Assembly (NCBI RefSeq): GCF_004345735.1
Contig: NZ_SLXL01000002.1
Coordinates: 124,001-188,000 of the forward strand
From: Rhodovulum adriaticum
Lineage (GTDB): Bacteria; Pseudomonadota; Alphaproteobacteria; Rhodobacterales; Rhodobacteraceae
Direction of reading: 5' to 3'
Length of the DNA: 64,000 nucleotides
A program made the position numbers and the translations under genes. The notes under the pieces are model-generated. The model searched no databases and was not told the DNA's origin. It saw only the letters and a list, made by a program, of their open reading frames with translations. This document shows, piece after piece, positions 2,665 to 16,329 of the stretch; within the stretch, counting starts at the first letter, position 1; each line of letters begins with the position of its first letter.

Positions 2665-3668
2665 GCCGGCCCCGTCACGCCCGCATCGTCGAAACTGGCC
2701 ATTTCGTTCAGCATCGCCGTGGCGGCCTTCAGCAACGGCCAGGCCAGCAGCGCGCCGGTCCCCTCGCCCAGCCGCAGGTTCAGCGACAACAGGGGCTTGG
2801 CCTCCAGCGCCTCAAGCAGCGCGCCGTGGCCCTGTTCCTCGGAATGGTGGGCAAAAACCATGGCGCCGCGACATTCCGGGGCCAGCCGCACGGCGGCCAG
2901 CGCGGCAGAGGTGGCGATGAAGCCGTCCACGATCACCACCTTGCCTGCGGCGGCGGCGCCCTGCATCGCGCCCGCCATCATCGCGATCTCGAACCCGCCA
3001 TATTCGGCCAGCGCCTGCGCCGGGGACAGATCGCCCGTGCGCGCCGCGGCCCGTTCCAGCACCGCGCGCTTGTGCGACAGGCCCGCATCGTCCAGCCCGG
3101 TGCCACGGCCCACCAGCACGTCCAGCCCAACGCCGGTCAGCTTGTGCCCCAACGCGGCGGCCGTGGCGGTATTACCGATCCCCATCTCGCCAAAGGCCAC
3201 TGCGTCCCAGTCGCCCTCGCCCCCCAGGGCGCGGCCGGTTTCCAGCGCCTGGTCGCATTGCGCCGCACTCATCGCCGGGCCAGTCAGGAAACTGGCCGTG
3301 CCCGCGCCCACGCGCCGGTCGATCAGCCCTTCGGCGCCCATCGGATCGCCCGCAATCCCCGCATCGACCACCCGCAGTTCGACGCCGGCGCTGCGCGCAA
3401 AGGCATTCGCCGCCGCGCCGCCGGCCAGGTAGTTCAGCACCATCTGCTGCGTCACCTCCTGCGGGAAAGCCGACACGCCCTCGGCCGCGATGCCGTGATC
3501 CGCAGCAAAAATCGTCATCTGACAGCGCTGCATGCGCGGGCTCAGGCTGTTCTGCACCGTGGCGATCTGCGCGGCCAGCGCCTCGATCCGGCCGAGCGAG
3601 CCGACGGGCTTGGTCTTGAGGTCGATCTTGCGTTGCAGGGCTTCGGCAAATGGTGTCTCTAGGGTCAT
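2661..3668 (-). CDS. cobT: Nicotinate-nucleotide--dimethylbenzimidazole phosphoribosyltransferase
   Basis: A 335-residue cytosolic enzyme that makes alpha-ribazole 5'-phosphate from dimethylbenzimidazole and nicotinate mononucleotide, the activated lower ligand of B12. Visible family blocks are [13 protein letters not shown] near the N-terminus, [20 protein letters not shown] (about residue 55-75), [15 protein letters not shown] in the middle, and [10 protein letters not shown] with [10 protein letters not shown]-like [17 protein letters not shown] at the end. First gene of the leftward cobT-cobS-cobC set and divergent from cobQ. The 158-bp gap to cobQ has no recognisable cobalamin riboswitch. 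Confidence 0.96.
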
Positions 3669-5291: not shown

Positions 5292-8200
5292 CTAGTAATC
5301 GCGTTCGTAGAACACGCCCAGGCCGGTCTCTCCCTCGGCACCGACCCGCCCCCGGACGGTCACGCTGGGGGTCACGTCCAGGTTCAACTCGATGGTGCTG
5401 CTGCCGGACTCGTCCACGGTGACCTCGGAATAGACATTTTCGGACAGGTACTTGCCGACACGCAGCTCTGTTCCGCCCTCTTCGGTCCGGGTGACATCCA
5501 GATCGTCCAGCCCGGTGCCCTCGCGCAGGCGCGACAGCAGGCCCCCGCCCCCGCCACCGGCCAGGGTTGCCACCGCCGCGGCCAGTTCGGCCGCCTGAAG
5601 GGCCGAGAGGTTTTCCAATCCCTGCCCGAACAGCAGGCGGGCCAACACCTCTTCCTCGGGCAGTTCCGGGTCCGAGGTGAACCCGATCTCGGGCGCGGTC
5701 GCCACCCCCTCCAACACCACCGACGCGGTGATATCGGCGGTCTCGCTGCTGGCGACGAAGCGGATGTAGGGTTCCAGCGCGCCTTGCAGCACGATCCTGC
5801 CTTCGTCCAGGGCAAAGCGCTTTGACAGGATGTCCAACCGGCCGCGCACCAGGTCGAACCGGCCTTCGGGGATGACATCGGCGCTGGTGCCCCGCAAACG
5901 CACCCGCCCGCCCAGCTCTGCGTCCAGCCCGCGCCCCCGCACGAACAGGCGGCCCGGTGCCTCTATCACCAGGTCCAGCGGCCAGGGTCGGCCGGGTCCG
6001 GCAGTGCCGCCGTGCCCGATCAGCCCGGCGCGGGCGCGGGTCGCCTGGATCGCCGCGCTGGCCCCGCGATGGGCGATCTGCGGGATCGGACCGTTGCCCC
6101 CGACCGCCCCCGAAGGCACAGAGACCTCAGTCGTGCCCAGCAGGATGCGCCCGCCGACCGCAGCCCCGCCGGTGAGCGGTCCGCTGACCGTCAGCCGCCC
6201 GTCCAGCCTGGTGTCGTAAAGCGTCGGGTCGCGCAGTTCCGCCCCGTCCATGGTCAGCACAAGATCGCCCGGAAAGGCCCCCGCCAGCCCGACCGTGCCC
6301 GCAAGGGCGACACGGCCCCCGCCCAGCCTACCCGACAGATCGGCACGCGCCTGCCCGCCGCCCAAGCGCACCTGACCGGACAGATCGGTAACCTTTGCCC
6401 AGTAGGACGGCAGGGCCAGCCGCGCGCCGCTGGTGGAGATGTTCCCGCTCAGCGCCGCCAGCGATGGCTGGCCGCTTACCCCAAGGTCGAACCGCGCCAA
6501 CCCGTCCAGACTGCGCGGGGCGATCATGCCGTTTATCAGCGCCAGCGGTGCCTGCCCCGACAGGCGCAGATCGGCATCGCGGCCCAGGGTGCCGCGCACC
6601 GCGGCGGCCATCCCGCCCGGCCCGCGCAGATCCAGGTTCACTGTCGCCGCGCCATCGCCCGGAACCAGATCGCCGGACAGGTCCAGCGCGCCCGACAGGT
6701 CCGGCACCAGCAACGCCAGATCGGCGAGGCGGGCATTCAACGCAACCGCCGCGCCCTCGCCCTGACGGGCCCCGACGCGCACCCCGTTTCCGTCCAGCGC
6801 AAGGGTGTTCAGGACCAACTGTCCCCCAACGCGCGCCGCGTCCAGGCGCAGAGTACTCTCGCCCCGCAACAGCGTATCGGCCGCGCCCAGCCTAAGGCCG
6901 AGATCGCGCGCATCCACAGACAGGCGCAGCGCGGCATCGCCGGTCCCGCGCAAGGTGCCCTCGCCCTCGGCCCGCAGGTCCAGCGCGCCCGACAGCGCCC
7001 GCCCGGCCAACCCGGAAAAACGCGCCAGATCCTCGGCCCGCAGCGTCAGCCAGCCATCGACGGGCAGCGACGTATCCTCGGGGGAAAGACGGCCCTCGGC
7101 CGAGAGGCTGGCCCCCGCCGCATTGGCCTGCAGCCGGGACAGTTGCACCTGCCCGCCCGCCTGCCAGGTCATTTCGGCGTGCAATTCGCCCGGCCCATCC
7201 AATGCCGGATCAAGCGGGCGCAGATCGGGCACCCGCGCGGCCAGCGTCATGTCGCCCGCCGCCGTCGACAGATCGCCCGCAAGGGACACCTCGGCCCCCT
7301 CGGTGCGCAGATCGAATGCGCTGATCTGCGTCCCCTCTGGCCCGCGCTGCGCGGATAGGTTCAAACGGCCAGTGCCCCGCAGCAGCGGATCCAGGCGCGG
7401 CGTGCCCGTGACCAGATCCTGCGTGCGCCCCGACAGCACCAGTTCGCCCGCACCGCCCAGCAGGGCATAGCGCCCATTCACGCCCAGTTCGGCGCTGCCG
7501 CCCAGTTCGCGGCCGGCCAGCGCTGCAAACCGGGCCAGATCGTCGGCGACCACCCGCGCGTTGCCCTCGACCGGAACCCCCTCTGCCAGCGGGCCGAAAC
7601 TGGCCTGCCCGCTGAGCCGGGTATCGCCCGAGACCAGTTCCAGCCGATCCACCCGTGGCGATGCGCCCCGCATCCAGCCAAGCTGGGCGGTGCCCGAAAC
7701 CGTGCGGCCCATGGCCCGCGCCAGATCGGGATCGGAATGCGCCAGGCCATCCAGCGCCAGATCCAGGTCGGCCGCCAATGCGCCGGGCGTGACAGTCCCC
7801 GTACCGCCAAGCTGGACCTGCCCCAGCACCAGCCCGTCGCGGGACAGATCCGACAGGTCCAGATCCGCGTTCCAGCGCGGGCTTTCGGCGGTGTCCAGGC
7901 GAACCTTAACCTCTGCCCCGCCCAGACGCGTTTCGGCCCCCGGCACCGGCAAGGCAACCGGCCCGCTCACCTGCCCGTCCAGCGCAACCCGCGCGGGCCA
8001 GCCCTGCGCATCCAGCGCCAGGCTGCCATCCAGCGTCATCGCCCCGGTCCGCAACGCCAGCCGGTCGATGGCCACCGCCCCCTCGGGATCGCGCAGCCCG
8101 GACAGCACCAGCCGGGTCGCATCGCCAAAGAACGGGCGCAGCCGTGGCGCCACCAATGCGCCGGGATCGCCGGCCACATTCAGCACGAACTGCCGTGCAT

Positions 8201-8990: not shown

Positions 8991-10786
8991 CAAAAGGCCT
9001 GCCCAATCCCGATGTAAAGCTGCACGCCATCCCCGGTGCCACCGCCGGTCGGCGCGGCCACGTCCAGGCGGATCGGGCCAAAGCCGGTGTTATAGCGCAC
9101 GCCCAGGCCCGCGCCCGAATGCCAGTCGCCCGGCCCGTCGATATCGGCCGCGACATAGCCCGCATCGGCAAAGGCGACCACCCCGATCGGACCGCTGAGC
9201 GCCAGCCGCGCCTCGGCCGAAAGGGCGGCAAAGGCACGCCCGCCCACCCGGTTGCCGCCGCCCAGATCGACGGCCAGCGATTGGTAGGGCTGCCCGCGCA
9301 CGGTGCCCCCGCCCCCCGAGAAGAACAGCAGATCCGGCGGCACCCCGGCCGTCGTCGCCCCCGTGATCGCGCCGAACTGCAACCGCGCGGCCAGAACCGT
9401 GCGTTCCCCCAGCCCCTGGTAGATCCGCGCATCCCCCGTCAGCCGAAACCCGTTTTCCGCAGCACCACCCAACGCCAGCAACGGCATGGCCCCGGCCTGC
9501 AAAAAGAACCCCTCGCCCGGGTTCAACTGATCGTCGCGCCGGTCCCAGGTCAACGCGGCCGGCACCAGCAGATGCGTCATGTCGCGCCGCCCCAGGTCGT
9601 CACGCACGGCGGAATGGCGCAGGGTCAGGCCCGCCTCGCCACTGAGCAGCCGGGAAAAGACATGGGTCAACCCCGCCCCCAGACTGACCGATTCCTCTCG
9701 AAAATCAGGCTCATCCAGGGTTTCCAGTTCCGCGGTCAGGTAGCCGCCCGTATCGGGCCCGGTAATCGCGGGACGCTCCAGCCGCGTGCTCAGCCGATAG
9801 TCGACACCGTCCCCGGCCCCGGCGCCGATCCCCTCAATCGCACCGTCAAAGCGCAGACGCTCGGCCCCGCCCAGCAGGTTGCGGTGCAGCCAGAACCCCG
9901 TCAGCGTCATCCCTTCGAGCGAGGACAGCTCCGCCCCCAGCCCAAGGCGCCGCGGCCGGGAATCCGTGACGGTCAGGACGACATCCATGTTGTCGCCCGG
10001 CCCCAGCGTTTCGGCCTCGGACAGGCGGACAGATCGGAACGCCCCGGTGCGCCGCAACCGGTCGGCGCTGCGTTCCAGCGCCTCGGGGGTGAACCGTGCG
10101 CCCTCGGGCAGGCCCGCGATGGCGCGCAGGCGTTCGGGCCGCACGGCGCTTTCGCCCTCGATCCGCAGCCGGCCAAAGGTGACCGCAGGCCCGGGCGCCA
10201 GCCGCAATCGGGCGTCAAGGCGTTGCCGGCGGTGGTCGGCGGACAGGTCTTGCGCCCCGATCCGGGCCTTGGCGTGGCCGGCCGACCGCCAACCCGCCAC
10301 CCCTGCCGCGGCCGCCTGCCGGATGACGCCGGTTTGCGCGGGGCGGCCTGGGGCGAATCCCTCTGGCAACTCGGTGCGCGGGGCCAGCGGCCCGATCTCT
10401 GCCCGGCCCAGGGTAAAGGCGGGGCCGGGATCTACGGTGATTTCCAACCGCGCGGGGCGGCCCGACAGCGCCAGCGGCGCCAGGTCCGCGGCCTCGCGCC
10501 CGTCCAGACGGATATGAATGACAGGCCCGAACCGTCCCCGGTCGTACAGCACCCCGACCAGCCGCCCGTAATCGGCCCGCGCGGCGGCCAGGATTTCCTG
10601 CGCGCTGGCCTCGGCGCGGCGCGCGGCAGCAAGGCTGAGCGAGGCATCCTTCAGCGCGCGCTTCAACGCCTGCCCGGCACCAGGTGCGGACAGGCGGGCC
10701 TCGGTCGCCCAGCTGGGGGCGGCCATCCCCGCCAAGACAAGGATCAAGACCAGGGCCGCGGCCCGTCTAAGGATGGATTCGGTCAA
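8990..10786 (-). CDS. tamA: BamA/TamA family outer-membrane protein, TamA
   Basis: A 598-residue Omp85-superfamily protein. It has a signal peptide ending near PSWA-TEARL, three POTRA-like domains in the first ~270 residues (for example ITVDPGPAFTLGRAEIG and RLAPGPAVTFGRLRIEG), then a 16-strand barrel with the loop-6 motif in the form VRGQPYQSL and a terminal aromatic residue (GIGQAF) that is the outer-membrane insertion signal. Coupled to tamB by a 1-bp stop/start overlap, the standard TamA-TamB arrangement. It lies 75 bp downstream of pucC on the same strand, so read-through from the puc operon is possible though a hairpin intervenes. Confidence 0.93.
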   Translation of the reverse strand: MTESILRRAAALVLILVLAGMAAPSWATEARLSAPGAGQALKRALKDASLSLAAARRAEASAQEILAAARADYGRLVGVLYDRGRFGPVIHIRLDGREAADLAPLALSGRPARLEITVDPGPAFTLGRAEIGPLAPRTELPEGFAPGRPAQTGVIRQAAAAGVAGWRSAGHAKARIGAQDLSADHRRQRLDARLRLAPGPAVTFGRLRIEGESAVRPERLRAIAGLPEGARFTPEALERSADRLRRTGAFRSVRLSEAETLGPGDNMDVVLTVTDSRPRRLGLGAELSSLEGMTLTGFWLHRNLLGGAERLRFDGAIEGIGAGAGDGVDYRLSTRLERPAITGPDTGGYLTAELETLDEPDFREESVSLGAGLTHVFSRLLSGEAGLTLRHSAVRDDLGRRDMTHLLVPAALTWDRRDDQLNPGEGFFLQAGAMPLLALGGAAENGFRLTGDARIYQGLGERTVLAARLQFGAITGATTAGVPPDLLFFSGGGGTVRGQPYQSLAVDLGGGNRVGGRAFAALSAEARLALSGPIGVVAFADAGYVAADIDGPGDWHSGAGLGVRYNTGFGPIRLDVAAPTGGGTGDGVQLYIGIGQAF

Positions 10787-10818
10787 ATCGGCGCTCCGTT
10801 TGCGCCATGATGCGCCAC

Positions 10819-10843
10819 GGGACGCCCGTTTGAAAGGCGTCCC
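10819..10843 (-). terminator. Hairpin between pucC and tamA
   Basis: GGGACGCC (10819-10826) pairs with GGCGTCCC (10836-10843). There is no T-run on the minus strand, so it could be a weak or Rho-assisted terminator of the puc operon or an mRNA 3'-end stabiliser. Confidence 0.5.
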
Positions 10844-10861
10844 GGCAAAGATGTGACCGGA

Positions 10862-12274
10862 TCAGGTCGTGCCGCTGCGGGCCGCGCCGTAGACCTTGGC
10901 CGCGATCAGCGGATAGGCCACCACCAGCGTCGCGGCAAGGAACAGGAATTCGGCCCCGTAGACAAAGAAATAGGGCGTCGCCGGGCCAAACAGGGTCGAG
11001 AGCGGCGACGCCAGGATCAGGTCGCGCGCCACCCCGCCAAGGGCAATGGCAATCCCGGCAGAGGTCGCCTGCACCGCGCCCCAGGCCCCCAGGGCCAGCC
11101 CTACCTGCTCGGCAGGCGCCGACCGCATCGTCGCGGTCAGCGTGCCATGGCCGAACAGGCCCGCGCCGAACCCGGCCAGAAGCGTGCCGAGAATGAACAC
11201 CTCGGGCGACTGCAGCGTCGCCGAAAAGGTAATCAGCGCAAAGGCCGGCAGGCCCACCAGCGCCCCGCCCGCGGCCATCACCGCCGGATCGGCCCCACGG
11301 CTGAGCACTCGGGACGCCCAGGCAAAGCCGACCAGGCTGCCGCCGGCCAGGGTCGCGGTCAGCTTGGTCGTGGCGGCGACGGACATGCCCAGCACCTGGC
11401 CGCCATAGGGTTCCAGCAGCACCTCAGCCAGGCCGAAACCGACGGTGCCTAGGCCGATCACCCACAGCAGCCGCTTGGGATTGGCCCCACGCATGAACAG
11501 CGCCCAGGCCTCGGCAAAGCTGGGGTCGTCGTCCGGCTCCAGTCGCTTGCGCGCACGGTCGCGGTCGCGGGCCTCCATCTTCCAGATGGCGATGACGTTC
11601 AGGATCAGCGTCATCACCGCCGCGCCCTGCACCACCTTGATCAGCTTGGCGTGATAGAAATCCTCCAGCATGTAGCCAAAGGCCAACGCGCTGATAATCA
11701 TGCCGACCAGCAGCATGACATACATCAGGCCCACGACGTTGGGCTGATCCTCGCGCGGGGAAATGTCGGTGGCCAATGCCAGGCCCACGGTCTGCACGAT
11801 ATGCATGCCCGCGCCCACCAGCAGAAAGGCCACAGCCGCACTGAACAGCCCCAGCCAGACCGGCGCCTCGGCGGCGTATTCCTGCCGCGACAGAACGATC
11901 AGCGCAAAGGGCATCACGCAGAATCCGCCCCATTGCAGCAGCGTCCCCTTCCAGATGAAGGGCACCCGGCGCCACCCCAAGGCGGATTTGTGGGTATCGG
12001 AACGATGGCCGATAAACGCCCGGAACGGGGCAAAGACCAACGGCAGGGCGATCATCACCGCGACGAGCGAGGCAGGCACCTCAAGCTCGACGATCATCAC
12101 CCGGTTCAGCGTGCCGACCAGCAGAACCATCGCCATGCCGACCGACAACTGGAAAAAGGCAAGCCGCAGCAGGCGGCTGAGGGGAACGTTTTCGCTGGCA
12201 GCCTCGGCAAAGGGCATGTAGCGCATGCCAGCCTGTGCCAGGCTGTTGATCGCAATCTTGCTAAAGCGGTTCAT
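10862..12274 (-). CDS. pucC: PucC, bacteriochlorophyll-delivery (BCD) family MFS protein of the LH2 operon
   Basis: A 470-residue, roughly twelve-helix protein of the PucC/LhaA branch of the major facilitator superfamily, needed for assembly or accumulation of LH2. Family signatures include LLRLAFFQLSVGMAMVLLVG, LNRVMIVELEVPASLVA, APFRAFIGHRSDTHKSALGW, GAGMHIVQTVGLALATDISP and GLFGHGTLTATM. The frame is open further upstream to 12382, but the ATG at 12274 has a GGAGAC ribosome-binding site and yields the usual N-terminus. It follows pucA after 185 bp that contain an intercistronic hairpin, the layout known from Rhodobacter pucBAC. No pucD or pucE follows; the next gene is tamA. Confidence 0.94.
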   Translation of the reverse strand: MNRFSKIAINSLAQAGMRYMPFAEAASENVPLSRLLRLAFFQLSVGMAMVLLVGTLNRVMIVELEVPASLVAVMIALPLVFAPFRAFIGHRSDTHKSALGWRRVPFIWKGTLLQWGGFCVMPFALIVLSRQEYAAEAPVWLGLFSAAVAFLLVGAGMHIVQTVGLALATDISPREDQPNVVGLMYVMLLVGMIISALAFGYMLEDFYHAKLIKVVQGAAVMTLILNVIAIWKMEARDRDRARKRLEPDDDPSFAEAWALFMRGANPKRLLWVIGLGTVGFGLAEVLLEPYGGQVLGMSVAATTKLTATLAGGSLVGFAWASRVLSRGADPAVMAAGGALVGLPAFALITFSATLQSPEVFILGTLLAGFGAGLFGHGTLTATMRSAPAEQVGLALGAWGAVQATSAGIAIALGGVARDLILASPLSTLFGPATPYFFVYGAEFLFLAATLVVAYPLIAAKVYGAARSGTT

Positions 12275-12369
12275 TACGACGTCTCCACACGGCGCAGGAT
12301 GCACCGCGTTCTGTCTGCCCGAACGGGGGACGCGTTTCCAGACCCGGAGATCATCCGGCCCAACATGCA

Positions 12370-12395
12370 AAGGCCGAGGCAAATGCCCCGGCCTT
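12370..12395 (-). terminator. Intercistronic hairpin between pucA and pucC
   Basis: AAGGCCG (12370-12376) pairs with CGGCCTT (12389-12395), one A/C mismatch, then GGCA/TGCC-type pairing inside, with a very short loop. In the minus-strand RNA it falls between pucA and pucC. By analogy with Rhodobacter puc operons it probably stabilises or terminates the abundant pucBA message; a second smaller dyad (CCCCTG 12423-12428 with CAGGGG 12451-12456) lies next to the pucA stop. Confidence 0.65.
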
Positions 12396-12459
12396 CGCCG
12401 GACCCTTCACCCGAGGCATCCACCCCTGGCGAAAGTGTCTCGTCTTACCACAGGGGCGA

Positions 12460-12618
12460 TTACTCGGCCGAGGCCGCGCCGTTGTGGTAGTCGTACATCC
12501 AGCTGGTGTTCATCACCAGGCCGACGTGCACCAGGAACGAGCTGATGGCAACGGCCGACAGGAAGAGCGGGATACCGACGGTCGGCTTAACGACCAGCCA
12601 CATTTTCGCGTTGTTCAT
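12460..12618 (-). CDS. pucA: LH2 (B800-850) antenna alpha subunit PucA
   Basis: A 52-residue antenna polypeptide. N-terminal NNAKMWLVVKPTVGIPLFLS matches the LH2-alpha family nearly residue for residue; one membrane helix follows with the B850-ligating His31 (SFLVHVGL), then SWMYDYHNG and a short AASAE tail. Aligned with Rhodobacter sphaeroides PucA, Trp40 and Tyr44 are kept but position 45, normally Tyr or Trp and an H-bond donor to the B850 acetyl group, is His. Ribosome-binding site AAGGAG lies 10 bases before the ATG. The gene is 23 bp downstream of pucB. Confidence 0.95.
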   Translation of the reverse strand: MNNAKMWLVVKPTVGIPLFLSAVAISSFLVHVGLVMNTSWMYDYHNGAASAE

Positions 12619-12641
12619 AACCTAGTCTCCTTATTCTTGGA

Positions 12642-12797
12642 TTAGCCGAGCCACGGGGTGGCAACGGCGGCCAGGAAGTGAGCGAACAGCGCGATCGCGC
12701 CGAACACACGGGTGCCGTCGATCAGCTGCTTTTGCACTTCTTCAGCTTCGGCGAGCGTCAGGCCGGTCGGCCAGACTTTGTCCATATCGTCAGTCAT
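12642..12797 (-). CDS. pucB: LH2 (B800-850) antenna beta subunit PucB
   Basis: A 51-residue antenna polypeptide, first gene of pucBAC. The sequence [20 protein letters not shown], then [20 protein letters not shown] and ATPWLG, is a close match to Rhodobacter PucB. His40 is the B850 ligand and Arg30 the expected B800 contact. The conserved His 18 residues before the ligand (EEVHKQ in R. sphaeroides) is Gln22 here (codon CAA), a clear departure from the family. The ribosome-binding site GGGGAGA precedes the ATG. Expression is probably under PpsR/CrtJ control from the site about 165-180 bp upstream. Confidence 0.95.
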
Positions 12798-12935
12798 ATT
12801 GTCGTCTCCCCAATATGGTTTTCGACTGCGTTACGTGCAGAAACCTGCACTCGATGTCGACAAATGCCCGGTCGGAAGCGGTTCTCCCTGAACTCGTCCA
12901 AGGCGCGTCCACCCCGGCATCGTCACGGAAAAAGA

Positions 12936-12953
12936 TGTCACATTAGGTTGACG
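12936..12953. promoter_or_regulatory. PpsR/CrtJ-type site 1 (one mismatch)
   Basis: TGTCACATTAGGTTGACG fits TGT-N12-ACA except for the last base. It lies 7 bp from the perfect site, a tandem layout typical of PpsR/CrtJ-repressed photosynthesis promoters. Confidence 0.6.
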
Positions 12954-12960
12954 ATGGCAA

Positions 12961-12978
12961 TGTCAACGCAGGCTGACA
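12961..12978. promoter_or_regulatory. PpsR/CrtJ-type site 2 (perfect TGT-N12-ACA)
   Basis: TGTCAACGCAGGCTGACA has perfect TGTC/GACA half-sites. It overlaps the putative -35 of the pucB promoter, as expected for aerobic/light repression of LH2 genes by PpsR. Confidence 0.75.
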
Positions 12979-13197
12979 AAGGCCTCAAATCGTGCGACAT
13001 ATCGATCCAAACCCAGGCAATGCGACGCGGCGGCGCAACATGTGCGACCCAGCGCCTGCGACGGTCGGCACCATTGAAATTGCTGCGATTTGGTGGGGTA
13101 ATGGCGCGCACTGACTATGACCGTGCCGCCCCTGGCGGCCCCGAAATGCACTCCGCTCGACCTGCTACGACGCGCGTGCAAGACCCTGGAGGAAACA

Positions 13198-13523
13198 TGA
13201 CCAACTACATCTGGGATGCCTGGCTGCCGAAGCTGTCCAGCAAGGATCGCATGACCGACGTCAAGTTCGACGCCGATGCCAGCAGCACCCCCTTTTCCGA
13301 CATGCTGGGCTTCGACTGCCTGTCGAAAAACACCCGCGAAGTCGACCTGATGACCACCAACCCCACGCCGTTCTCGACCTCTATGAACTGGCCGGTGCTG
13401 GGCGGTACGGGCGAAGGGCATGTCGAGCTGACCACGGACAACCCGACCCCGCTGTCCAACTGGATGGGCTGGAAGCTGCTGTCCAAGCGCGCCTATTACG
13501 GCATCGCCGCGCACCTGCAATAA
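13198..13523 (+). CDS. Unrecognised 108-residue protein with three TPxS repeats, divergent from puc
   Basis: Strong start: GGAGGAAAC directly before the ATG, and a perfect terminator 22 bp after the stop. The protein has no signal peptide or membrane helix. It is built of three repeats of 26-27 residues (about 21-46, 47-74, 75-102), each carrying a TPFS or TPLS core at residues 31, 57 and 84, followed by a hydrophobic M/L-G/N-F/W-x-x-L stretch (SDMLGFDCLSK, STSMNWPVLGG, SNWMGWKLLSK). The second and third also begin NPTP. I do not recognise the family. Divergence from pucBAC over a PpsR-type site suggests, but does not prove, a photosynthesis role such as an LH2 assembly factor or a peripheral LH2 protein; comparison with R. 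capsulatus PucE would be the first test. Confidence 0.85.
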
Positions 13524-13544
13524 GCGGCGGATCGACCACAGACA

Positions 13545-13578
13545 CCCGCGCGGCCCGCAAGGTCCGCGCGGGTTTTTT
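13545..13578 (+). terminator. Rho-independent terminator of the repeat-protein gene
   Basis: CCCGCGCGG (13545-13553) pairs with CCGCGCGGG (13564-13572), followed by TTTTTT (13573-13578). A textbook intrinsic terminator, which supports the 13198-13523 gene being transcribed alone. Confidence 0.92.
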
Positions 13579-13728
13579 GTTGCGCGGCCCGCATTTCCTG
13601 TTGCCGCCGGGCCACGTCTCCTTTCCGCCACCTGCGCGCCAGCCTTGCGCCTGCTTTGCCAGGCTAACTGACAGGGTGTCGCGGTGCGGCCGCAGGCCGC
13701 GCCCGCAGAAGGCTAAAGGAGAGCAGAA

Positions 13729-13842
13729 ATGCCCCAGGCACCGACCCGCAAAACCCCGCCCAAAGGTGGCCGTTCCGACTCGGCCCGGCCCCGTCCGACC
13801 CCGAAAAAGGGCCAAATCTTTACCGACTGGGCCAGTATCTGA
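13729..13842 (+). CDS. 37-residue basic, proline-rich small protein
   Basis: The ATG is preceded by AAAGGAGAGCAGAA, an excellent ribosome-binding site at the right distance, and the frame ends in TGA just before a hairpin. The product is rich in Pro, Lys and Arg (RKTPPKGGRSDSARPRPTPK) and closes with the hydrophobic tail GQIFTDWASI. No domain is recognised and no function is proposed. Good translation signals plus a terminator make it a likely real small gene; it is too short for routine gene callers. Confidence 0.6.
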   Translation: MPQAPTRKTPPKGGRSDSARPRPTPKKGQIFTDWASI

Positions 13843-13847
13843 GCAGA

Positions 13848-13882
13848 AAAAGGGGCCGTCCCCAGCTGGAACGACCCCTTTT
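13848..13882. terminator. Bidirectional terminator between small ORF and ndk
   Basis: AAAAGGGG (13848-13855) pairs with CCCCTTTT (13875-13882), extended by CGT/ACG after one mismatch. Its A and T flanks let it end transcription from both the rightward small gene and leftward ndk. Confidence 0.75.
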
Positions 13883-13933
13883 CGAATCACTCTAAGTCCA
13901 GAATCGCCCCTTTGGCGATCCTGAAGCCCGGAC

Positions 13934-14356
13934 TCAGCCGACCAGTTCGAGACCGGAGAAGAAGTAGGCGATCTCTTCCTTGGCGGTGTCTTCGCCATCG
14001 GACCCGTGAACCGAGTTCTCGCCGATCGACAGGGCGAATTCCTTGCGAATGGTGCCCTCGGCGGCCTCGGCCGGGTTGGTGGCGCCCATCACTTCGCGAT
14101 TCTTGGCAATCGCGTCCTCGCCTTCCAGCACCTGCACGACGATCGGGCCGGAGGCCATGAATTCGCACAGTTCGCCATAGAAGGGGCGTTCCTTGTGGAC
14201 CGCGTAGAACACGCCGGCCTGCGCCTCGGTCAGGTGGATTCGCTTCTGCGCGATGATGCGCAGGCCCGCGGCCTCCAGCTTGGCGTTGATCGCGCCGGTC
14301 AGGTTCCGCTTGGTCGCGTCGGGCTTGATGATGGAAAAGGTGCGTTGAATCGCCAT
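13934..14356 (-). CDS. ndk: Nucleoside diphosphate kinase
   Basis: The 140-residue enzyme balances NTP and dNTP pools by phosphate transfer through a phospho-His. The N-terminus [20 protein letters not shown] and the active-site block [20 protein letters not shown], with the catalytic His in VHGSD, are diagnostic. The ATG at 14356 has AGGAGG nine bases upstream; nine extra codons upstream in the open frame are not used. It stands alone, with the divergent ABC-F gene on the other side. Confidence 0.97.
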
Positions 14357-14478
14357 TTTTCGTCCTCCTGCGCGCCGCGTCACCTGCGGCGGTGATAAAT
14401 CGCGGCCCTGCTAGCATGGGGTCTGCCCCTTGAAAAGCCGCGATTGACGCAGGGGTTCGGCTGCGGCACACCCGCCCC

Positions 14479-16329
14479 ATGCTACGCATCAGCGATATCA
14501 GTTACGCGGTAGAGGGCCGCCCGTTGTTCGACGGCGCCTCTGCGGTGATTCCCGACGGGCACAAAGTGGGCCTGGTCGGCCGCAACGGCGCGGGCAAGAC
14601 CACGCTCTTTCGCCTGATCCGCGGGGAATTGTCCCTGGAATCGGGAGAGATCACCCTGCCCGCGCGCGCGCGCATCGGCGGCGTCGCGCAAGAGGCGCCC
14701 GCGTCAGACGATTCCCTGTTGGACACGGTGTTGGCGGCAGATACCGAACGCGCCGCGCTGCTGGCCGAATCCGAAACCGCGACCGACCCGCACCGGATCG
14801 CCGAGGTTCAAACCCGGCTGGCCGATATAGACGCCTGGGGCGCGCCGGGCCGTGCGGCGGCGATTCTCAAGGGCCTGGGCTTTACCGAGGCTGAACAGGC
14901 GATGCCCTGCCGTGCCTTTTCGGGGGGCTGGCGAATGCGCGTGGCACTGGCCGGCGTCCTGTTCGCCCGGCCCGACCTGCTGCTGCTGGACGAACCGACC
15001 AACTATCTGGACCTGGAGGGCGCGCTGTGGCTGGAGGGGTATCTTGCCCGCTACCCGCACACAGTGATCCTGATTTCCCATGACCGCGAATTGCTGAACC
15101 GCGCCGTGGGCCACATCCTGCATCTGGAAAACCGCAAACTGACGCTTTACGCGGGCGGCTATGACGCCTTTGCCCGCGCCCGCGCCGCGAACCGCGCCGT
15201 TCAGGCCGCCGAGGCGAAAAAGCAAGAGGCCCGCCGCGCCCATCTGCAAAGCTTCGTCGATCGCTTCCGTGCCAAGGCCACCAAGGCGAAACAGGCGCAG
15301 TCCCGGCTGAAGATGCTGGAAAAGATGGCCCCGATCACCGCCCCCGAAGATGCCGCGCGCACCGTGTTCACCTTTCCCCAGCCCGACGAGATGTCGCCGC
15401 CCATCGTGGCACTGGAAAGTGCCAGCGTGGGATATGGCGACCAGCCTGTTCTGTCGCGCCTGAACCTGCGGATCGACCAGGACGACCGGATCGCCCTGCT
15501 GGGCCGCAATGGCGAGGGCAAATCGACCCTGTCGAAACTGTTGTCGGGCCGGCTGGCCGCGATGGGCGGGCGGCTGACCCGGTCCAGCAAGCTGCGGATC
15601 GGCTATTTCGCCCAGCACCAGGTGGACGAATTGCATCTGGACGAAACGCCGCTGGATCATATCCGACGCGAACGCCCCGAAGAGGCGCCCGCGAAACTGC
15701 GCGCGCGGCTGGCCGGGTTCGGGCTGGGCGCCGATCAGGCCGAAACGCAGGTTGCGAAACTGTCGGGCGGGCAAAAGGCGCGGCTGTCGCTGCTGCTGGC
15801 CACACTGGACGCGCCGCACATGCTGATCCTGGACGAGCCGACCAACCACCTGGACATCGAGAGCCGCGAAGCGTTGGCCGAGGCGTTGAACGATTACAGC
15901 GGCGCGGTGATCCTGGTCAGCCACGACATGCATTTGCTGTCGCTGGTCGCCGACCGGCTGTGGCTGGTCAAGGACGGTCGCGTCGGCCCCTATGACGAGG
16001 ATCTGGACGCCTATCGCCGGATGCTGCTGTCCGGCGATGCCCCCGCCAAGCCGCAGACCGCGAAACCCGCCGCCCCGAAACGCCCGGGGCGCGAACAGAT
16101 GCTGGCCCTGCGCGCCGAGGTCCGCAAATGCGAGGCCCGCGTCGAGAAGCTGACCGAGATGCGCGAAAAGCTGTCGGAAAAGCTGGCCGACCCCGACATC
16201 TACGACACCAGCCGCGAGGATGAACGCCTGCTGTGGCAGCGCAAGTTCGCCGAGGTCGAAGAGGCCATGGAACGGGCCGAGGGGTTGTGGATGGCCGCCC
16301 TCGAAAACCTAGAAGAAGCAGAGGTTTAG
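14479..16329 (+). CDS. ABC-F family ATP-binding protein (Uup/YheS type)
   Basis: A 616-residue soluble protein with two ABC domains and no membrane segment. First Walker A GRNGAGKTT near residue 36, signature FSGGW, Walker B LLLLDEPTNYLD; second Walker A GRNGEGKST near 337, LSGGQ, LILDEPTNHLDIES. The linker between them (about 235-300) is a charged helical P-site-tRNA-interacting motif, and the C-terminus (about 545-610) is a coiled coil as in Uup/YheS. ABC-F proteins act on stalled ribosomes. No clear Shine-Dalgarno precedes the ATG at 14479, so the message may be leaderless or the site weak. Confidence 0.92.
   Translation: MLRISDISYAVEGRPLFDGASAVIPDGHKVGLVGRNGAGKTTLFRLIRGELSLESGEITLPARARIGGVAQEAPASDDSLLDTVLAADTERAALLAESETATDPHRIAEVQTRLADIDAWGAPGRAAAILKGLGFTEAEQAMPCRAFSGGWRMRVALAGVLFARPDLLLLDEPTNYLDLEGALWLEGYLARYPHTVILISHDRELLNRAVGHILHLENRKLTLYAGGYDAFARARAANRAVQAAEAKKQEARRAHLQSFVDRFRAKATKAKQAQSRLKMLEKMAPITAPEDAARTVFTFPQPDEMSPPIVALESASVGYGDQPVLSRLNLRIDQDDRIALLGRNGEGKSTLSKLLSGRLAAMGGRLTRSSKLRIGYFAQHQVDELHLDETPLDHIRRERPEEAPAKLRARLAGFGLGADQAETQVAKLSGGQKARLSLLLATLDAPHMLILDEPTNHLDIESREALAEALNDYSGAVILVSHDMHLLSLVADRLWLVKDGRVGPYDEDLDAYRRMLLSGDAPAKPQTAKPAAPKRPGREQMLALRAEVRKCEARVEKLTEMREKLSEKLADPDIYDTSREDERLLWQRKFAEVEEAMERAEGLWMAALENLEEAEV

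Follow-up and report, generated by a model that had tools for sequence, protein, structure and literature searches.

A repeat protein encoded beside the LH2 genes of Rhodovulum is probably an overlooked partner of the LH2 antenna

Introduction

LH2 is the textbook antenna of two polypeptides, and R. sphaeroides is a usual structural model for it. In R. capsulatus, the puc operon carries extra genes after pucC, pucD and pucE, which are associated with the B800-850 gamma polypeptide. The best known analogue of the protein analysed here is the LH2 gamma of R. palustris (RPA1495; PDB 7zcu chain S). Gamma is described as an extended ribbon of six repeats that runs around six of the nine alpha-beta units, with serines that ligand extra bacteriochlorophyll (BChl), and is said to occur only in Rhodopseudomonas (PMC9618040). 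The literature that we searched, mostly openly readable, yielded no paper describing the repeat protein presented below.

Results

The window, meaning the whole stretch of 64,000 nucleotides analysed here (positions 124,001 to 188,000 of contig NZ_SLXL01000002.1, Rhodovulum adriaticum assembly GCF_004345735.1), encodes on its forward strand a 108-aa protein in a gene divergent from pucBAC. The coding sequence occupies 13197..13523; the first-pass annotation had started it at 13198, one base after the true ATG at 13197. Orthologues of this type A, the puc-linked Rhodovulum form, are present in all 16 Rhodovulum genomes searched. Three tandem units of 26-27 residues had been described in the product, and self-comparison bears them out: they begin at residues 29, 55 and 82, with spacings of 26 and 27, and their three-way BLOSUM62 self-score of 103 was reached in none of 200 shuffles, the maximum of which was 50. 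The units follow an N-terminal segment (13197..13280, +) for which the alignment of 16 orthologues gives the motif YIWD.W.PKLSSK..(L)TDV, with P11, L13, T20 and D21 invariant. Repeat 1 (residues 29-54; 13281..13358, +; STPFSDMLGFDCLSK) contains the invariant Ser34, repeat 2 (residues 55-81; 13359..13439, +; NPTPFSTSMNWPVLGG) the invariant Ser60 and Trp65, and the core of repeat 3 (residues 82-97; 13440..13487, +; NPTPLSNWMGWKLLSK) the invariant Ser87, Gly91 and Trp92, so that each repeat has one serine that is invariant in 16/16 orthologues. The dN/dS ratio of 0.13-0.28 in five orthologue pairs indicates that the gene is under purifying selection.

The AlphaFold model of the protein, computed from an alignment of 11 rows, has a pLDDT of 48 and short helical turns only, which suggests that the protein is probably unfolded. 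Searches against Pfam and NCBIfam returned no match up to E 1, and comparison with PF00556 (LH alpha/beta) gave none for the repeat protein; pucA and pucB both match this family. PDB sequence searches with family queries produced nothing convincing, and the de novo TIM-barrel entries matched by profile A8 were rejected, as each sums four very weak hits. An Rfam scan of window positions 10000-15000 gave no match.

The gene carries the strong ribosome-binding site previously ascribed to it, GGAGG at 13188..13192 (+), and GGAG precedes the start codon in 16/16 Rhodovulum orthologues. The claim that it has its own perfect terminator also holds: an intrinsic terminator at 13544..13578 (+) combines a 10-bp stem, an inner 2 bp and a T run, with a folding energy of -27.7 kcal/mol (z -4.86). 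A simple terminator scanner reported none, its loop limit being 8 and the loop here 10. A nucleoside diphosphate kinase gene lies beyond the 108-aa gene. On the opposite side, and all on the reverse strand, are pucB for LH2 beta (12642..12797) and pucA for LH2 alpha (12460..12618), both identified by PF00556 matches, and pucC of the PUCC family (MFS; 10862..12274; PUCC match). Downstream of pucC come genes for Omp85/POTRA and then TamB, so pucD and pucE are absent from this puc operon, as had been stated.

The ATG of the repeat gene is 399 bp from that of pucB, in agreement with the proposed common control region of about 400 bp. Between the divergent genes lies one perfect TGT-N12-ACA (TGTCAACGCAGGCTGACA; 12961..12978, +), a pattern that we take to be a PpsR/CrtJ-type site, with PpsR presumably its reader. 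The window contains five such patterns against 4.65 expected, and a single site is not significant by itself; TGT-N12-ACA is nevertheless found in 15/15 intergenic regions of puc-linked Rhodovulum loci, as is GATGTCACA, and this conservation sustains the earlier suggestion of a PpsR-type site common with pucBAC. Conservation also points to a candidate promoter, TTGAAA-17-GGTAAT (13074-13079 and 13097-13102; 13074..13102, +): the pair TTGA...GTAAT occurs on the repeat-gene side in 14/15 puc-linked Rhodovulum loci, the exception being G011. A promoter scanner reported none for the 108-aa gene.

At E 0.001, no orthologue of the protein was found in 85 other relatives, and in the order sample profile A1 matched 4 of 390 genomes, all four of them Rhodovulum. 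Within the genus, the gene adjoins pucBAC in 15 of the 16 genomes. In R. imhoffii (G010, L060), the repeat gene and pucBAC are on separate contigs, and the protein has neither the N-terminal WD.W nor the C-terminal YYG. Each of the 16 genomes has four LHC matches, which correspond to an LH1 pair and an LH2 pair, and three PUCC matches.

Paralogous copies, each with two to five repeats, occur in Rhodovulum at sites that are not linked to puc. Type B has mostly three repeats and type C mostly four to five, and both end in a conserved F.KF.R.I.TGEVQK or a close variant; the third class is the short type D. Paralogues of the window genome lie at G000:C6, C1 and C3. Ten neighbours of paralogues were scanned, eight of which had a Pfam match at E 1e-4 (PG-binding, Tad, DnaG, acyl-CoA dehydrogenase, CoA-transferase, CAP and two M20 peptidases) and two had none; no photosynthesis family appeared among the ten. 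A PpsR-type site was found in 0 of 16 upstream 400-bp stretches of paralogues (8 B, 7 C, 1 D). Because the paralogues are located away from puc and are without PpsR-type sites, not every copy need serve LH2, and their placement is evidence against the Rhodovulum family as a whole serving LH2 alone.

The paralogues show some features of their own. The start of type B is preceded by a leader, GAAGCCAA....TTGGTGGA..(A)GGATCAA..AGGTGGAYC (L031, L034, L027, L028, L018, L019, L022, L067), whose GGATCAA occurs in 7/8 genomes compared; this leader suggests common regulation of some kind. Two type B paralogues have extra tandem TFTNPQVETK repeats at the N-terminus (L030:1393-1797 and L078 at about 6929-7348). 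Type D adjoins M20 peptidase genes in L040:4594-7511 (checked with Pfam), in L038 and L044 (homologous neighbours) and in L073 (by eye); in the window genome (L074), it adjoins instead a gene that we presume to be AnmK-like.

Relatives beyond the genus were sought with profiles A2 and A3, built solely from the puc-unlinked Rhodovulum paralogues (types B and C) and run on about 392-394 family and 384-385 class genomes, two samples that may overlap by a few. Outside Rhodovulum they matched G680 (5.0e-5), G664 (1.9e-4), G721 (1.7e-4) and G994 (5.0e-4), E-values that apply to one genome each and are modest by themselves. Each of the four matches is a protein of 220-233 aa in which an N-terminal domain is combined with a repeat array, and 4/4 are encoded at pucBA(C) loci. 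This is strong evidence, since position played no part in the choice of the query. In the reverse direction, a profile of non-Rhodovulum members recovered types B (8.2e-10), C (1.2e-9) and A (1.0e-6) of the window genome.

Direct reading of LH2 loci revealed the same linkage in both samples. In the class sample, 26 of 372 genomes have LHC proteins, and 11 of the 25 non-own LHC genomes were judged LH2-type, ten with at least four matches, plus G755. In 10 of these 11 Alphaproteobacteria (G087, G721, G747, G752, G755, G779, G804, G902, G981, G994), a gene for a repeat protein neighbours pucBA or pucC, and none was found in the fetched LH2 stretch of G784. Often the gene separates pucA from pucC or one pucBA pair from another. 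In L094 it is divergent from pucB, the arrangement seen in Rhodovulum, and in L100 its neighbour is pucBA, the short contig offering no more than a distant PucC-like match (28%). Among Rhodobacteraceae, LHC proteins occur in 53 of 133 genomes, and 17 of the 52 non-own LHC genomes, judged LH2-type from their LHC hits, were read in 19 stretches. The repeat protein is present in 12 of the 15 determinable genomes, directly after pucC in 12/12; G037, whose contig ends in pucC, and G498, whose locus is not LH2-like, were left out of this count. No repeat gene was seen in the LH2 stretches of G192 and G417, with two pucBA loci each, or of G381. The four absence calls (G784, G192, G417, G381) refer to the fetched stretch, which was read directly. 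Both samples together give a puc-locus repeat protein in 22 of 26 LH2 genomes. As there are LH2 loci without the gene, LH2 may do without the repeat protein; the two such genomes with two pucBA loci each look R. sphaeroides-like.

A tblastn search of plasmids with the L082 protein, the L092 protein and pucB gave no match; pucC matched 11 plasmid records, the single one examined being a bchM-puhA neighbourhood. The loci that were read also contain unusual LH2 alpha proteins. At second pucBA loci, L123:6593-7384 and L132:7784-8764 encode an alpha with a very long C-terminal tail rich in Ala/Glu/Pro, and L094:7281-7634, L096:7352-7585 and L089 (about 2944-3291) encode an alpha whose C-terminal extension runs past the usual length.

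The puc-linked relatives are proteins of 183-349 aa that join a YflT-like N-terminal domain of about 100 aa to an array of about two to at least 11 repeats, counted by eye. This family gave no Pfam/NCBIfam match at E 0.001. The N-terminal domain weakly resembles YflT (PF11181), matched by 3 of 24 members at E <=0.1 with a best E of 0.0014, and the one of these matches that was inspected falls below the Pfam cut-off. In the Rhodovulum protein the domain is absent, its place being taken by the short YIWD.W.PKL segment. Repeat periods are 15-16, 25-26 or 32: several class members score best at 16 or 32, most Rhodobacteraceae at 25-26 and one protein at 15, and 16 or 32 ranks among the two best periods in L090, L093, L095, L098 and L100, with 32 in L092. 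When sequences were selected on a P-L core, the comparison gave a common repeat core of Ser/Met, hydrophobic residues and then P-L-(L/I)-S, with basic residues frequently coming next. The first repeat reads DPSPLSDLLGIPTL in a class relative and STPFSDMLGFDCLS in the window protein; several class arrays start with.PSPLSD.LGIPTL, to which the Rhodovulum first repeat STPFSDMLGF..LS is close, and a S.TEL stretch after the first repeat is common to class arrays and Rhodovulum. Together with the profile searches in both directions, these comparisons show, at the level of sequence, that the repeats of the window protein are related to those of its puc-linked relatives.

The longest array seen by eye is that of L133:4861-5796, a puc-linked gene with repeats of about 15 residues (PGHKFMANFPFGHLI) that counts about eleven units and runs into the contig end. 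A ring size read from two arrays of about nine units (L127 and L130, by eye) was dropped in view of these eleven.

Homologues common in genomes lacking LH2 would weigh against the link to the antenna that the first-pass annotation had proposed. Profile A7, made from non-Rhodovulum members, matched 12 of 190 Alphaproteobacteria genomes, namely eight LH2 genomes with repeats and four others without. All repeat-containing matches (8/8) thus fall in LH2 genomes, seven of them being rows of A7 and the eighth the window's own genome. The four matches outside the LH2 list (G701, G710, G778, G803) were rejected as family members, none having a repeat array. Two of them, L110 and L111, are stress-protein-like sequences that carry the relatives' YflT-like domain, split by a Gly-rich insert, and no repeats; L109 carries part of the domain, and L112 appears to be an enzyme hit by chance.

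Discussion

The window protein resembles R. palustris gamma in several respects. Both are small repeat proteins of LH2 context, gamma being an extended chain and the window protein one that is predicted to be unfolded; both have one conserved Ser per repeat, which in gamma binds pigment and in the window protein may do so; and both use a motif of the kind G.PL(I/L). The two differ in period, which is 16 in gamma (chain 7zcu_S) and 26-27 in the window protein, with 16 in some puc-linked relatives, and the relatives' N-terminal domain is without counterpart in gamma. Profile comparison with hhalign gave no match to gamma for A1 and A3 and a weak one for A7 (P 0.0017, probability 15%), whose alignment sets gamma's ligand Ser opposite a different residue. 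A PDB search listed gamma at E 2.2 with A7 and did not list it with A8. None of 5000 full shuffles of gamma reached its A7 score; among 5000 repeat-preserving shuffles, gamma's score was equalled by 36-87 with A7, A8 and a unit profile, by 230 with A2, by 1108 with A1 and by 1141 with the Rhodovulum units. The window protein shares a design with gamma without significant sequence homology, and by this analogy it probably works like gamma. There is a likeness of position to PucD/PucE of R. capsulatus, the place after pucC being filled by the repeat protein in 12 Rhodobacteraceae loci. The earlier proposal of an LH2 accessory or gamma-type component finds good support in the linkage to LH2 loci; the puc-unlinked paralogues speak in part against it, and no significant homology to gamma was found.

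These genomic patterns indicate that the repeat protein is probably an overlooked partner of the LH2 antenna. The account that we favour, by a modest margin of belief, is that the 108-aa protein represents the Rhodovulum branch of an unrecognised family encoded at LH2 loci and would itself act as a peripheral, extended LH2 subunit. It would be made together with LH2 under PpsR-type control and would stay largely extended or disordered, following the LH2 ring on its cytoplasmic edge. Each repeat, with the Ser of TPLS followed by a Met/Phe-Gly-Trp..Leu-Leu core, could dock on one alpha-beta unit, much as the gamma ribbon does in R. palustris, and so make the ring more stable or bring in a peripheral BChl. 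Ser34, Ser60 and Ser87 would be the candidate pigment or docking residues, and three repeats may cover about a third of one ring. Against the subunit reading, repeat numbers range between about 2 and at least 11, a spread that fits no fixed ring size.

That variability would suit a multivalent gatherer, and the main rival, which we consider rather unlikely, is a role in LH2 assembly. The protein would then be a disordered chaperone with several binding sites, acting with PucC to gather alpha-beta units at ring closure and leaving afterwards. The position of the gene directly after pucC in all 12 Rhodobacteraceae loci that have it agrees with this role, and the relatives' separate N-terminal domain might provide the attachment to PucC or the membrane. 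Against it stand the placement often seen in the class sample, where the gene precedes pucC or is flanked by pucBA pairs, and the L100 gene, found next to pucBA with no closer PucC than the distant match on its short contig; one invariant Ser per repeat suits a fixed contact.

An array that matches no single ring size might also belong to a scaffold by which the photosynthetic membrane or LH2 arrays are organised; the Rhodovulum paralogues would then do similarly for other membrane partners. The multi-copy Rhodovulum family of two to five repeats, and the shared F.KF.R.I.TGEVQK end of types B and C, would fit such a protein, yet the linkage found outside Rhodovulum is to puc and not to general membrane genes, and we regard this possibility as improbable. 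It is very improbable that the repeat protein is peculiar to Rhodovulum, has an unrelated function and sits beside puc by chance. Close homologues were indeed confined to Rhodovulum within the samples searched, and the named neighbours of paralogues are dnaG/Tad, acyl-CoA dehydrogenase, CoA-transferase, M20 peptidase and similar genes; but the distant relatives, found without regard to position, are all at puc loci, and the linkage to puc is kept in 15/16 Rhodovulum genomes. A chance neighbourhood is thus already disfavoured.

Extending the peripheral-subunit account to the class is more tentative, and we put it forward as a possibility that we doubt more than we believe. In most LH2-bearing Alphaproteobacteria, LH2 may include a third polypeptide, a disordered and fast-evolving repeat ribbon whose gene lies at the puc locus and which would wind around the ring. 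Each repeat would contribute one peripheral bacteriochlorophyll or one contact, and repeat number would tune the antenna; Rhodovulum would have duplicated the ribbon for further partners, perhaps LH1. Small size, an unfolded state and fast evolution could explain why such a component was overlooked. If the repeat protein found in 22 of 26 LH2 genomes holds as a third LH2 component, such a component would be common in Alphaproteobacteria, and not only in Rhodopseudomonas.
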